Assembly (NCBI GenBank): GCA_015272215.1
Contig: JACYMD010000030.1
Location: 1 to 46,187 of the forward strand
Length of the DNA stretch: 46,187 nt
Source: Rivularia sp. T60_A2020_040
GTDB lineage: Bacteria; Cyanobacteriota; Cyanobacteriia; Cyanobacteriales; Nostocaceae
Direction of reading: 5' to 3'
Shown here in pieces: positions 10,577 to 40,405 of the stretch. A program made the translations under genes and the position numbers. Under the pieces are notes generated by a model, which was not told the origin of the DNA, made no database searches, and saw nothing but the letters and a program-made list of their open reading frames with translations. How positions within the stretch are numbered: position 1 is the first letter of the stretch; each line of letters begins with the position of its first letter.

Positions 10577-10735
10577 TTAGCAGAGGAACGCTAATGTGTA
10601 AAGTACCATGATATTTCGGGTGAGTGCGTCCGCATTATTCCTGAAATATCTCACCACTGATTTTCTAACCATCCGTGGTTATACAGTCAGAGGCTCAAAT
10701 CAGCCATTGATGTCAAACTTCTTGCTTTCGGCGTT

Positions 10736-10770
10736 TTCTTTGCGCTTAACTCCCCGTACCTTTGCGTTGA
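10736..10770 (-). repeat. CGCAAAG-family repeat, inverted partial copy
   Basis: CTTTGCGCTT and CCTTTGCGTT are minus-strand versions of the CGCAAAG unit found at 11747, 13619, 14041 and 40384. It is a degenerate copy in a gene-free stretch upstream of the methyltransferase-HIT gene. Confidence 0.6.
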
Positions 10771-10903: not shown

Positions 10904-11770
10904 ATGCAAAAACAACAAAATAAATTTACTCACCTTACAGCAATAGAAAGGACTAATTTATCATATCCAGCAAAGGTTTTATTAGACCAAAATTTACTTC
11001 AAGGCAAAATTTTAGACTTTGGTTGTGGTTTCGGGAATGATGTCCAATTATTACAAAAAAAAGGATTTGATATTACAGGTTATGACCCTTATTATCTTCC
11101 ACAATATCCTCATAATAAATTCGATACAATAATTTGTTTTTACGTCTTAAACGTTTTATTTCAAGAAGAACAAACTAACGTATTAATGGAAGTATCCCAT
11201 TTATTAAAACCAGGAGGAAAAGCTTATTTTGCTGTGAGAAGGGATATAAAAAGAGAAGGATTTAGAGAACACTACGTTCATAAAAAACCTACATATCAAT
11301 GTATCGTAAAACTTCCTTTTAATTCCATATATTTAAACGAAAACTGCGAAATCTACGAATATATTCATTATAATTACCAGCAACATTCATCCGAAAATTG
11401 CATATTTTGTAATCCCCGTAAAAGCCTGACATTACTAACCGAATCAGCCACAGCATACGCCATACTTGACGGATATCCTTTAAGTAAAGGACATACATTA
11501 ATTATTCCCAAACGTCACGTCAGCAACTATTTTGAACTACCATTTAAAGAACAATCCGCTTGCTGGTTAATGGCTAATAAAGTGCAAGAAATCATCGGTA
11601 AAGAATTTGCACCAGACGGTTTTAATGTAGGAATGAATATTAATCGAGATGCTGGACAAAATGTGATGCACGCGGGAATTCATGTTATTCCTCGTTATAA
11701 AGGTGATGTTGAAGGTGCTAGAGGTGGAATACGGGGTGTAATTCCGAAACGCAAAGTAGCGCAAAGGTAA
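10904..11770 (+). CDS. Bifunctional SAM-dependent methyltransferase / HIT family protein
   Basis: 288 residues, a fusion. Residues 1-155 are a small class I methyltransferase with SAM motif ILDFGCGFGND (36-46), the acidic residue in GYDPYY (59-64) and LLKPGGKAYF. Residues 160-288 are a HIT domain: NCIFCNP (165-171), GHTLIIPKRHVSNYF, and a triad region reading MHAGIHVIPRYKGD. The HIT triad is normally H-x-H-x-H; here the middle, nucleophilic position is Gly258 between His256 and His260, so classical nucleotidyl hydrolase activity is doubtful. I recall such fusions in other cyanobacteria. The C-terminus (KRKVAQR) and stop codon come from a CGCAAAG repeat that overlaps the gene end. Confidence 0.88.
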   Translation: MQKQQNKFTHLTAIERTNLSYPAKVLLDQNLLQGKILDFGCGFGNDVQLLQKKGFDITGYDPYYLPQYPHNKFDTIICFYVLNVLFQEEQTNVLMEVSHLLKPGGKAYFAVRRDIKREGFREHYVHKKPTYQCIVKLPFNSIYLNENCEIYEYIHYNYQQHSSENCIFCNPRKSLTLLTESATAYAILDGYPLSKGHTLIIPKRHVSNYFELPFKEQSACWLMANKVQEIIGKEFAPDGFNVGMNINRDAGQNVMHAGIHVIPRYKGDVEGARGGIRGVIPKRKVAQR

Positions 11771-11788
11771 ACGCAAAGGAGCGCGGAG
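11747..11788 (+). repeat. CGCAAAG-family repeat, 42-bp copy B
   Basis: A 42-bp unit with three CGCAAAG cores. It matches copy C at 13619-13660 at 40 of 42 positions, in direct orientation. It overlaps the last codons and stop of the methyltransferase-HIT gene and ends 7 bp before the stop codon of the convergent Rpn gene. Confidence 0.85.
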
Positions 11789-13618: not shown

Positions 13619-13660
13619 AAACGCAAAGTAGCGCAAAGGTAAACGCAAAGGAACGCTGAG
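13619..13660 (+). repeat. CGCAAAG-family repeat, 42-bp copy C
   Basis: Direct copy of the 42-bp unit at 11747-11788 (two differences). Its last 20 bp, AAACGCAAAGGAACGCTGAG, end at the base before the stop codon of the GxxExxY gene and are the inverted partner of 14062-14081. Confidence 0.88.
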
Positions 13661-14038
13661 TTAGAGCTTGTTTGCTACTCGTTTGATTCCTTCTTTGAGG
13701 TGGAGGACGTTAAAGTTGAAAAGAAGTCCTAGCTTACAATCTGTGAGTTTGAGGTAAGTTAAAAGTTGTACTGAGTGAATTGGTTTAAGAGACTCTACCG
13801 ATTTAACTTCAATTATTACTTTATTTTCAACTATTAAATCCAATCGATAAACACAATCTAATTCTACTTCTTCATAGACAAGAGGAACCGGAATTTGTCT
13901 TCCAACATTTAAACCTTTTTTTCTCAACTCATACTCCAAACACTGCTCATAAGCAGACTCCAACAAACCCGCTCCCAAAGCAGTATGCACTCGCATAGCA
14001 CAACCAATTATAATTCCACTCAAATCATTCTCATACAT
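13661..14038 (-). CDS. GxxExxY family protein
   Basis: 125 residues, the normal length of the family. The naming motif is GLLESAYE (about 24-31), followed by a PD-(D/E)XK-like core: YRLDLIVENKVIIEVKSVESL, with Asp at about 67 and Glu-x-Lys at about 76-78. The biochemical role of this widespread family is not established as far as I know; the motif suggests a nuclease. The gene fits almost exactly between inverted repeats at 13641-13660 and 14062-14081, as if repeat and gene form one unit. Confidence 0.9.
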   Translation of the reverse strand: MYENDLSGIIIGCAMRVHTALGAGLLESAYEQCLEYELRKKGLNVGRQIPVPLVYEEVELDCVYRLDLIVENKVIIEVKSVESLKPIHSVQLLTYLKLTDCKLGLLFNFNVLHLKEGIKRVANKL

Positions 14039-14040
14039 AC

Positions 14041-14081
14041 TCCGCGTCCCTCTGCGTTTCCCTCAGCGTCCCTTTGCGTTT
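14041..14081 (-). repeat. CGCAAAG-family repeat, inverted copy D
   Basis: Read on the minus strand this is a tandem of two related units, AAACGCAAAGGGACGCTGAG and AAACGCAGAGGGACGCGGA. Bases 14062-14081 match the complement of 13641-13660 at 19 of 20 positions. It begins 2 bp upstream of the GxxExxY start codon. Confidence 0.86.
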
Positions 14082-14160: not shown

Positions 14161-15879
14161 ATGTCTTACCGAATGTCCCGCCGTGCTTACGCTGAAACTT
14201 TTGGTCCCACAGTTGGTGACAAAATCCGTCTTGCTGACACCGAATTATTTATCGAAGTCGAACAAGATTTCACTACTTACGGTGATGAAGTAAAATTTGG
14301 TGGTGGTAAAGTTATCCGCGATGGCATGGGACAATCCCCCATTTCCAATGCTGATGGTGCGGTGGATACTGTCATAACTAATGCTTTAATTCTCGATTGG
14401 TGGGGTGTTGTTAAAGCTGATATTGGGATTAAAGACGGTAAAATATTCAAAATTGGTAAAGCTGGAAATCCTTATATTCAGGACAATGTAGATATTATTA
14501 TCGGTCCCGGAACCGAGGCGATCGCCGGTGAAGGTATGATACTGACTGCTGGTGGTATAGACAGCCACATCCATTTTATTTGTCCGCAACAAATCGAGGT
14601 TGCTATTGCTTCCGGTATTACCACGATGTTGGGCGGTGGTACGGGTCCAGCAACTGGTACAAATGCTACTACTTGCACGCCGGGAGTCTGGAATATTCAC
14701 CGAATGCTACAAGCTGCTGATGCTTTCCCGGTAAACCTGGGATTTATGGGTAAAGGTAACTCTAGCCAACCCCAAGGACTCGCTGAACAAGTCGAAGCGG
14801 GAGCAATGGGGTTGAAGTTACATGAAGATTGGGGAACTACTCCCGCCGCTATTGATACTTGTTTGACTGTTGCTGATGAATATGATGTGCAAGTAGCGAT
14901 TCATACCGATACTTTGAATGAAGCTGGTTTTGTTGAAAATACGATCGCAGCTTTTAAAAACCGGGTTATTCATACCTACCATACTGAAGGCGCGGGAGGA
15001 GGACACGCACCGGATATTATCAAGGTTTGTGGGCAAATTAACGTTTTACCATCTTCAACTAACCCTACTCGTCCTTACACTGTCAATACCTTGGACGAAC
15101 ACCTGGATATGTTAATGGTGTGTCATCATCTTGACCCCAATATAGCCGAAGATGTCGCCTTTGCAGAGTCGCGTATTCGTAGGGAAACCATCGCTGCTGA
15201 GGATATTTTGCACGATTTGGGCGCGTTTAGTATGATTGCTTCCGATTCTCAAGCGATGGGAAGGGTAGGTGAAGTAATAATTCGTACTTGGCAAACGGCG
15301 CATAAAATGAAAGTTCAACGAGGAAATCTTACTTCTAACAATGGAGTTGAGGAAAGATCAGATAATTTTCGCGCTAAAAGATACGTAGCTAAATACACTA
15401 TTAACCCGGCAATTACTCACGGTATTTCTCAGTATGTGGGTTCGGTGGAAGAAGGGAAAATTGCCGATTTATGTTTGTGGAATCCGGCGTTTTTCGGCGT
15501 AAAACCGCAGATAGTTATTAAAGGGGGATTTATTGCTTATTCGCAAATGGGTGATGCTAATGCAAGTATTCCTACACCACAACCAGTACATATGCAACCA
15601 ATGTTTGGTAGTTTTGCCAATGCTCGTCATGCTACGTCGTTTACCTTCGTTTCTCAAGCAGCTTTGGAAAGAGAAATTCCTGCACAATTAGGGTTAAGAA
15701 AAAAGGCGATCGCAGTTTTGGGAACACGGGAGTTAAGCAAGCGAAATATGAAGCTCAATGATGCTTTACCACGTATAGAAGTAGATTCGGAAACCTACGA
15801 AGTAAGAGCGGATGGTGAGTTGCTCACTTGTGAACCTGCGGCAATTGTACCGATGGCGCAACGGTATTTCTTGTTTTGA
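14161..15879 (+). CDS. ureC: Urease subunit alpha
   Basis: 572 residues, full length. It carries the dinickel site that hydrolyses urea to ammonia and carbamate. His136 and His138 ([10 protein letters not shown]), the carbamylated Lys219 (GLKLHEDWG), His248 (AIHTDTLNE), His274 ([10 protein letters not shown]), His322/323 of the flap motif CHHLD and Asp362 are all present, so the enzyme should be active. It needs UreA and UreB, encoded about 26 kb away on the other strand; the accessory genes ureE, ureF and ureG are not in the window. The gene is flanked by GxxExxY and MNT genes, an unusual setting. Confidence 0.97.
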
Positions 15880-15939
15880 GTGTTAATTAAAAAGCATTAT
15901 TTTAGTTAAAATTTTCTTAAATATGATGTGAATCAAACC

Positions 15940-16230
15940 ATGAATATTTACGAATTGTTGCGAACAAAGCGAGAGGAAATTTTGCACACAGCAGCTAAAT
16001 ATGGTGCATACAATGTTCGGATTTTTGGCTCTGTAGCGCGTCAAGAAGCTGATGCAAAGAGTGATGTAGATTTTTTAGTTGAAATGGATGCCCGACGAAG
16101 CCTTTTTGACTTGGGTGGATTACTTATGGAATTGCAAGATTTATTAGGTTGTAATGTTGATGTAGTCACAGAAAAAAGTTTAAGGAAACGAATCCGCGAA
16201 CGAATACTTCAAGAAGCAATTTTATTATGA
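15940..16230 (+). CDS. MNT-type nucleotidyltransferase (MntA-like), apparently without HepT partner
   Basis: About 96 residues from ATG 15940 (GTG at 15928 would add four). The minimal nucleotidyltransferase signature is complete: GS([10 protein letters not shown])DVD, with Gly34-Ser35 and Asp46/Asp48, and a third acidic residue in NVDVV (Asp78), numbered from the GTG. MntA antitoxins AMPylate HEPN toxins (HepT). No HepT follows: an ATG overlapping the stop (16227-16229) reads only M-R-D before a stop. This suggests lost partner DNA, but that is inference. Confidence 0.85.
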
Positions 16231-39842: not shown

Positions 39843-39861
39843 GTTAAGCGCAAAGGGTAGG
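39843..39861 (+). repeat. CGCAAAG-family repeat, degenerate copy F
   Basis: GTTAAGCGCAAAGGGTAGG, a partial match to the CGCAAAG repeat, about 38 bp after the XRE stop codon. Confidence 0.45.
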
Positions 39862-40383: not shown

Positions 40384-40405
40384 AGACGCAAAGAGCGCTG
40401 AGGGA
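40384..40405 (+). repeat. CGCAAAG-family repeat, copy E
   Basis: GACGCAAAGAGCGCTGAGGG, a 20-bp match to the CGCAAAG repeat, between ureB and the cupin gene. Confidence 0.65.

Follow-up and report, generated by a model that had tools for sequence, protein, structure and literature searches.

Inverted tandem-heptad arrays at GxxExxY genes: a candidate system of a predicted nuclease and its cognate repeats

Results

The window locus

The window, by which we mean the whole 46,187-nucleotide stretch of DNA analysed here (Rivularia sp. T60_A2020_040, assembly GCA_015272215.1, contig JACYMD010000030.1, positions 1 to 46,187, forward strand), contains a small gene of the GxxExxY family that lies upstream of ureC, is divergent from it, and is bracketed by two arrays of short tandem repeats. 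The relevant features are as follows.

13661-14038, minus strand: GxxExxY / PDDEXK_3 gene, 125 aa, predicted minimal PD-(D/E)XK nuclease
14040-14081, minus strand: start-side array of four CGCNNAG heptads at 10/12/10 spacing, its end 1 bp short of the ATG
13619-13660, plus strand: stop-side array, inverted, four heptads, spacing 10/12/10, abutting the stop codon
11747-11788, plus strand: gene-less full array of 42 bp, overlapping the final codons of the methyltransferase-HIT gene 10904-11770
10728-10769 (ends approximate), minus strand: gene-less array, decayed, with two of its heptads intact and the other two degenerate
40384-40402, plus strand: two heptads with a spacing of 9 bp, perhaps left over from the short-spacing type

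An earlier, sequence-only reading of the window had placed AAACGCAAAGGAACGCTGAG at 13641-13660 (+), directly adjoining the stop codon of the minus-strand gene, and its complement with one mismatch at 14062-14081, which leaves 24 bp to the ATG at 14038, and both placements are confirmed. The 20-bp inverted repeats that it described are real, but it had noticed only half of each repeat, both arms being 42 bp long with four CGCNNAG heptads apiece. The gene-less copies that it listed are of unequal quality: the copy at 11747 is a full array, whereas that at 10736 is decayed, that at 40384 consists of two heptads, and that at 39843 is a single heptad which may be due to chance. Allowing up to 3 mismatches, AAACGCAAAGGAACGCTGAG has 4 matches in the window, compared with a mean of 0.00 over 100 dinucleotide shuffles. 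The 10/12/10 spacing approximates one helical turn, such that the window heptads would share one face of the helix; this arrangement is not general, since arrays outside the window's family are mostly spaced at 8-9 bp.

Seven neighbouring genes were scanned against profiles (ureC, HicA, a HicB-like protein, a nucleotidyltransferase, the methyltransferase-HIT protein and two without a match), and no cas gene was found among them with Pfam or NCBIfam. A HicBA pair and two family-less ORFs lie between the solo array at 11747-11788 and the GxxExxY unit, and the methyltransferase-HIT gene takes its final codons and its stop from positions 11747-11770 of that array; in the genome G140 (locus L038), approximately 41 bp separate the GxxExxY unit from a decayed array that ends the methyltransferase-HIT gene. 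A search of the arrays with Rfam returned no family at its cut-off, and as such a reading of them as structured RNA is unsupported. Separately, the Rfam family 5_ureB_sRNA (RF02514) scores 109.4 bits at 14316-14602 on the minus strand, antisense to ureC; the model may span conserved urease coding sequence, which would explain the match.

The GxxExxY protein

The window protein belongs to the GxxExxY / PDDEXK_3 family, as defined by TIGR04256 (E 3e-44, 150.1 bits against a cut-off of 35) and PF13366 (E 8.7e-44, 149.1 bits against a cut-off of 22). These were the sole Pfam/NCBIfam models matched, and an HUH (Y1) transposase domain is not present in the protein. Residues G22, G24, E27, Y30, D67, E77, K79, N108 and R120 are invariant in 70 sequences. 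A sequence search for solved structures returned none at E <= 1. The AlphaFold2 model (pLDDT 95) has as its top Foldseek match in the PDB the protein SSO0001, presumably a Cas4 (probability 1.00, E 2.8e-3, with no match at or below 0.001), and further matches include phage and lambda exonucleases and tRNA-intron endonucleases. By predicted fold and putative D...ExK active site, GxxExxY fits the PD-(D/E)XK superfamily, and the protein is predicted to have a minimal fold resembling those of Cas4 and the exonucleases, in which D, E and K are invariant.

A protein of this kind could be imagined to act in defence or DNA repair, as a Cas4/RecB-like nuclease that reads the arrays as a signal to stop or as a mark of self, in the way that RecBCD recognises self DNA by its Chi sites. 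The nearest folds, SSO0001 and the lambda-type exonucleases, are in keeping with such a role, as are the HicAB pair 0.5-1.3 kb from the gene and the nucleotidyltransferase at 15928-16230, which matches the MntA and HalB models with scores below their cut-offs. PADLOC, applied to three window proteins, may be read either way: it does match Cas4 (E 3.7e-4), but this and its other matches are weak and all fall on GxxExxY itself. A defence or repair role also leaves the inverted framing of the gene unexplained, and when the array counts given below are considered as well, we regard it as improbable.

Array framing in other genomes

Enrichment of the repeat near GxxExxY genes of other genomes, which the sequence-only reading had proposed as a check, is strong. 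Of 145 genomes of the window's family, which to judge from nearby named loci (Nostoc, Cyanocohniella) is probably that of the heterocystous cyanobacteria, 120 have a GxxExxY gene, and the first 32 loci examined were the three of the host and the 29 best-scoring others, one per genome. Within 100 bp upstream of the gene, 30 of the 32 have a heptad pair in the same sense and 0 in the opposite sense; within 100 bp downstream, 30 of 31 have an inverted pair and 0 a pair in the same sense; bins 200-800 bp from the gene hold 0. Twenty lower-ranked loci chosen from the list gave 15 upstream, 14 downstream and 14 on both sides by the same motif, and the remaining six also carry inverted arrays, as judged by eye, with variant or interrupted units (CRCAGATG in L285, L287 and L289; interrupted CGCCAAG in L275 and on one side in L290; reversed arrays in L282).

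A wider set was drawn from a profile scan of named genome contigs, which gave at least 578 relatives; among the 80 best-scoring ones, which were retained, the gene motif could be located in 75. Seventy-three of these 75 loci fall in 16 named phyla, one of them archaeal, although single host labels may be wrong because many of the hosts are metagenome bins. Arrays were found within 250 bp on both sides of the gene in 49 loci, on one side in 22 and on neither in 4, so that arrays flank 71 of these 75 best-scoring loci on one side or both. Within 100 bp upstream the pairs are in the same sense in 31 of 71 loci and in the opposite sense in 18, and within 100 bp downstream they are inverted in 47 of 72 and in the same sense in 12; the more distant bins, past 500 bp and three to four times as wide, hold pairs in 3-8 of 60-68 loci. 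Array orientation is looser here than in the window's family.

A comparison independent of any motif was made by aligning the left flank with the inverted right flank in both sets, and a score of at least 18 was reached in 79 of 96 loci, as against 4 of 86 for control windows placed 900 bp further out. In direct orientation 30 of 96 loci reached this score, a result probably owed to palindromic pairs in the vicinity, and in 46 of 96 loci the locus's own flank pair outscored all 12 random pairs. A chance origin of the repeats is ruled out by the shuffles, the reversed control (see below), the flank alignment and the distance-bin counts taken together.

Two peculiarities of the arrays may be recorded. 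Both arms of L275 hold the same 46-bp palindrome-like insert, a nearly identical one is present in one arm of L014, and other inserts occur in one arm each of L041, L028, L040 and L027; arrays may thus be hot targets for small dispersed repeats. In loci of the family's CAC type (L013, L015, L017, L018 and L024) the start codon is situated just ahead of the array, and the repeat therefore encodes the first residues of the protein (MNHKDTKTQR-like).

A control gene family in the same genomes

As a control, four-helix-bundle genes (TIGR02436; loci L161-L190) were taken from the same 145 genomes; 30 were fetched, 5 proved too short and 25 were measured. Heptad pairs were present at neither end in any of them (0 of 25), compared with 25 of 31 upstream and 26 of 31 downstream at the GxxExxY loci of the same comparison, which rules out the notion that these are generic repeats found beside any small gene. 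The four-helix-bundle genes have tandem arrays of another kind, GGCAGAR- or GGGAGYA-like, in 8 of 25 upstream and 17 of 25 downstream (far control 1 and 0), by patterns picked after the flanks had been inspected; at the 31 GxxExxY loci such arrays number 0 upstream and 0 downstream. The four-helix-bundle arrays resemble the short tandemly repeated repetitive sequences of cyanobacteria, and G127 and G018 each have several equally scoring copies of the gene.

Array type and protein phylogeny

Three GxxExxY genes, each with an array type of its own, are present in the 6.0-Mb host genome itself. In addition to the window gene (L009), L010 is flanked by CGCNNAG arrays at 8-9 bp spacing, and L011, whose protein is 35% identical to the window protein, by an inverted repeat of ATCCGTG type; with the one pattern tried, the only ATCCGTG-type copies in the host genome were the two at L011 itself.

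Across loci, left and right array types agree in 48 of the 49 that are two-sided (the exception, L072, is mixed), and mean left and right spacings are correlated (rho 0.89, 82 loci). On a quick tree of 107 proteins, built from few columns and with 56 of 104 inner branches left open, the 102 typed loci require 13 changes of array type, where the minimum of 1000 shuffles is 20; for the 72 loci from the genome_contigs set there are 12 changes against a shuffle minimum of 16. Phylum also tracks this tree (30 changes among 73 rows, shuffle minimum 37), and shared descent thus explains part of the type pattern. One clade with a support of 98 unites six CACNRAG loci (the mixed L072 among them) from Planctomycetota, Thermodesulfobacteriota, Chloroflexota, Caldifarciminota and one unassigned host. 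In these comparisons array type follows the protein tree, with descent contributing.

These results bear upon the idea that the repeats are mobilised by some other transposase and that GxxExxY is cargo caught between two copies. Terminal inverted pairs do resemble those of MITEs, which would suit a passenger gene. However, cargo would not be expected to show left-right type agreement in 48 of 49 loci, a type that tracks its protein tree across phyla, or repeat numbers that track its presence (see below), nor does this idea sit well with four-helix-bundle genes of the same genomes being without GxxExxY-type arrays (0/25). We give it little credence.

Gene-less arrays

The core ACGCAAAGGNNCGCNGAG occurs in 28 copies in the host genome, and its reversed control in 0. 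Eight solo copies were inspected, seven being single arrays and one having an inverted pair. Within the family, the median number of repeat pairs is 157 for the 120 genomes that carry the gene (quartiles 89-230) and 10 for the 25 that lack it (quartiles 2-25; Mann-Whitney p 1.5e-12). The contrast is present inside genera g5 (109, 115 vs 8, 16), g18, g20, g24 and g31; little or none of it is seen in g30 (181 vs 138), g40 (69-203 vs 56, 68), g17 (4 vs 8) and g51 (1 vs 2), and the link is broken in G075, with 138 pairs and no gene, and in G051 and G064, with 1 and 4 pairs despite the gene. The range across family genomes, 0 to 445 pairs, also weighs against the defence or repair role considered above, since such numbers are few for a Chi-like mark.

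Abundance also bears some relation to array type. CGCNACG pairs, counted in 49 genomes, peak in the homes of L105 (97), L067 (33) and L066 (22), all of which are CGCNACG-type loci; L058, so typed, with 1 pair, and G168, not so typed, with 19, are exceptions. CAC pairs are commoner than CGC pairs in the home genomes of 14 of the 20 CAC-type loci, as against those of 4 of the 26 CGC-type loci (Fisher p 2.4e-4); 10 of 46 CGC or CAC loci run against the commoner type of their own genome.

In certain hosts the gene-less copies are palindromic. The acidobacterial home of L048 has a dispersed palindromic unit in 18 of 20 stretches fetched, with a conserved core of approximately 135 bp and flanks at background identity, and the stretch preceding the L048 gene matches this unit with a score of 52, as compared with 10-24 for five genes of other genomes. 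Covariation within the unit was uninformative, as 3 of 32 pairs had two-sided changes and each of these also had broken cells. In all 20 stretches chosen from the Methanosarcinales genome of L098, a span of 160 bp takes in heptad pairs of both orientations. Gene-less repeats in the form of inverted doublets were met in the G173 and G188 units.

Locus history

The ureC site was matched in 136 of 145 genomes, and of 30 loci fetched, 28 were usable. Nine of these have the gene, 7 have arrays without the gene (in one case 1.3 kb away) and 12 have neither. Upstream of ureC, G060 retains both arrays with apparently just two gene ends between them (by eye), and in this single case the sequence looks like an internal-deletion derivative of the GxxExxY unit. 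The apparently empty ureC sites of G008 and G070 hold what look like degenerate remnants. In G000, G140, G104 and G118 the flanks of the L010 site enclose GxxExxY; in G083 they enclose a 351-aa open frame without the GxxExxY motif, in G045 the flanks are some 7 kb apart and the sole GxxExxY match is elsewhere in that genome, and in G130 the two flanks are on different contigs.

Six solo sites of the host genome (G000) were compared with those of congeners. The array is in place in G140 at sites 3, 4, 5 and 6 and in G104 at sites 3 and 5, and is absent from G104 at site 6; at site 3 five other congeners are without the array and show further length changes, and sites 1 and 2 were uninformative. 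At sites 5 and 6 in G140, and site 5 in G104, the arrays differ from those of the host by one heptad (3 vs 4), and arrays would thus seem to gain or lose single units.

The sequence-only reading had proposed a mobile unit and had suggested a search for empty sites in relatives. Sites without gene or array differ in other respects as well, and thus no clean empty site was found at ureC, at L010 or at the six solo sites, and the ureC-adjacent position of the gene is common to several genera. The two closest congeners searched keep the array at 6 of 7 informative solo sites, and no clear target-site duplication was seen in 69 loci relative to shuffled pairs, the largest direct-repeat excesses (e.g. 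6 exact 4-mers vs 2.8) being small given 144 combinations. The proposal of mobility therefore gains nothing from these comparisons, in which turnover is seen and insertion is not. The parallel that the same reading drew with RAYT genes and REP sequences does stand as regards inverted framing, gene-less copies, matched types and abundance that tracks the gene.

Positional stability of this kind would be expected if nothing moves at all, that is, if the arrays are binding sites of an autoregulated GxxExxY and the dispersed arrays are its regulon. The solo arrays being mostly position-conserved between close congeners, the tandem heptads resembling multimer sites, and the start-side array, which abuts the start codon in the window and is close to it in many loci, are all compatible with operators. 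An operator does not account for the inverted array at the 3' end, for the invariance of the nuclease-type residues D67, E77 and K79, for palindromic units in G173 that are alike while their flanks are unrelated, or for as many as 445 pairs in one family genome, and we consider this explanation unlikely.

Discussion

GxxExxY genes are framed by inverted arrays whose left and right members match, whose type is linked to the protein phylogeny and whose solo copies vary in number with the presence of the gene, and palindromic copies are dispersed in some genomes. This suggests a hitherto unrecognised system in which nuclease and repeats evolve together.

We propose that a stand-alone PD-(D/E)XK nuclease and its own arrays form a master unit that acts on gene-less copies in trans, and we would put the probability of this whole proposal at roughly 0.6. 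GxxExxY, as a protein of the Cas4/lambda-exonuclease kind, would recognise its own class of tandem-heptad array, and the gene with its two inverted arrays would constitute the master unit. Loss of the gene would leave paired arrays, which form palindromes, or single arrays, and these gene-less derivatives would spread and persist genome-wide in trans, as REPINs do with a RAYT. We infer that the protein may bind and cut its cognate array, that cutting may drive copying or gene conversion into new sites in a replicative manner, and that repair or hairpin intermediates may be the means by which cut arrays are copied. Whether the pair amounts to a second, independent REPtron-like system in bacteria and at least one archaeon, which co-evolves, crosses phyla and fills genomes with gene-less derivatives, is in our estimation an evenly balanced question.

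Arrays of CGCAGAG, CACAGAG and CGCAACG are present in tens to hundreds of intergenic copies in many of the surveyed genomes, and in the literature searched we found no tie between them and any gene. Pairing of array type with a cognate nuclease would provide these arrays with a likely cause and a direct test, and it suggests a role for GxxExxY, a family so far named merely by its motif. A like pairing of the four-helix-bundle genes (TIGR02436) of the same genomes with their heptamer arrays, which resemble short tandemly repeated repetitive sequences, would widen this into a general class of small genes with cognate arrays. The available portions of PMC full texts on GxxExxY give no account of repeats beside the gene, though an earlier description may exist elsewhere. 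PMC full text gave no match for CGCAGAGGCGCAGAG or for PDDEXK_3 with inverted repeats; the matches listed for CGCAAAGG are unrelated by title, and among those listed for small dispersed repeats, REPIN/RAYT and cyanobacterial short tandem repeats there is no link to GxxExxY. TAACTGA heptamers are not linked to GxxExxY in the accessible part of PMC4679880.

Among known repeat systems, MITEs are likewise short units between inverted repeats, and the G060 locus is like an internal-deletion derivative; the terminal repeats of GxxExxY units differ in being tandem heptad arrays, and no clear target-site duplication accompanies them. The multicopy intergenic sequences of Geobacter, which comprise palindromic and direct-repeat families, are similarly dispersed between genes, but in the sections available of PMC2996986 and PMC2700814 they are tied to no gene family. 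With Cas4, lambda exonuclease and RecB-type nucleases GxxExxY shares a predicted fold and catalytic residues, yet it is smaller (125 aa vs ~200), has no cysteine among its invariant columns, is paired with dispersed arrays and has no cas gene among its seven window neighbours.

The closest likeness is to RAYT genes and their REP sequences, for which the parts of PMC3116915 and PMC8266576 available to us describe cognate repeats beside the gene, inverted doublets, gene-less copies and type-specific pairing. GxxExxY has counterparts of each, in its cognate flanking arrays, inverted doublets, gene-less copies and pairing of types. Those same parts describe RAYTs as distinct single copies, whereas three GxxExxY genes, of three different array types, share the host genome here. 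The unit repeat of GxxExxY is a tandem array of 7-mers and is not itself a palindrome, unlike REP, and GxxExxY was found here in hosts of 16 named phyla. Last, the RAYT enzyme is an HUH transposase and GxxExxY is a non-homologous, predicted PD-(D/E)XK protein, with which the logic known for genes that maintain repeats would extend to an enzyme outside the HUH class.
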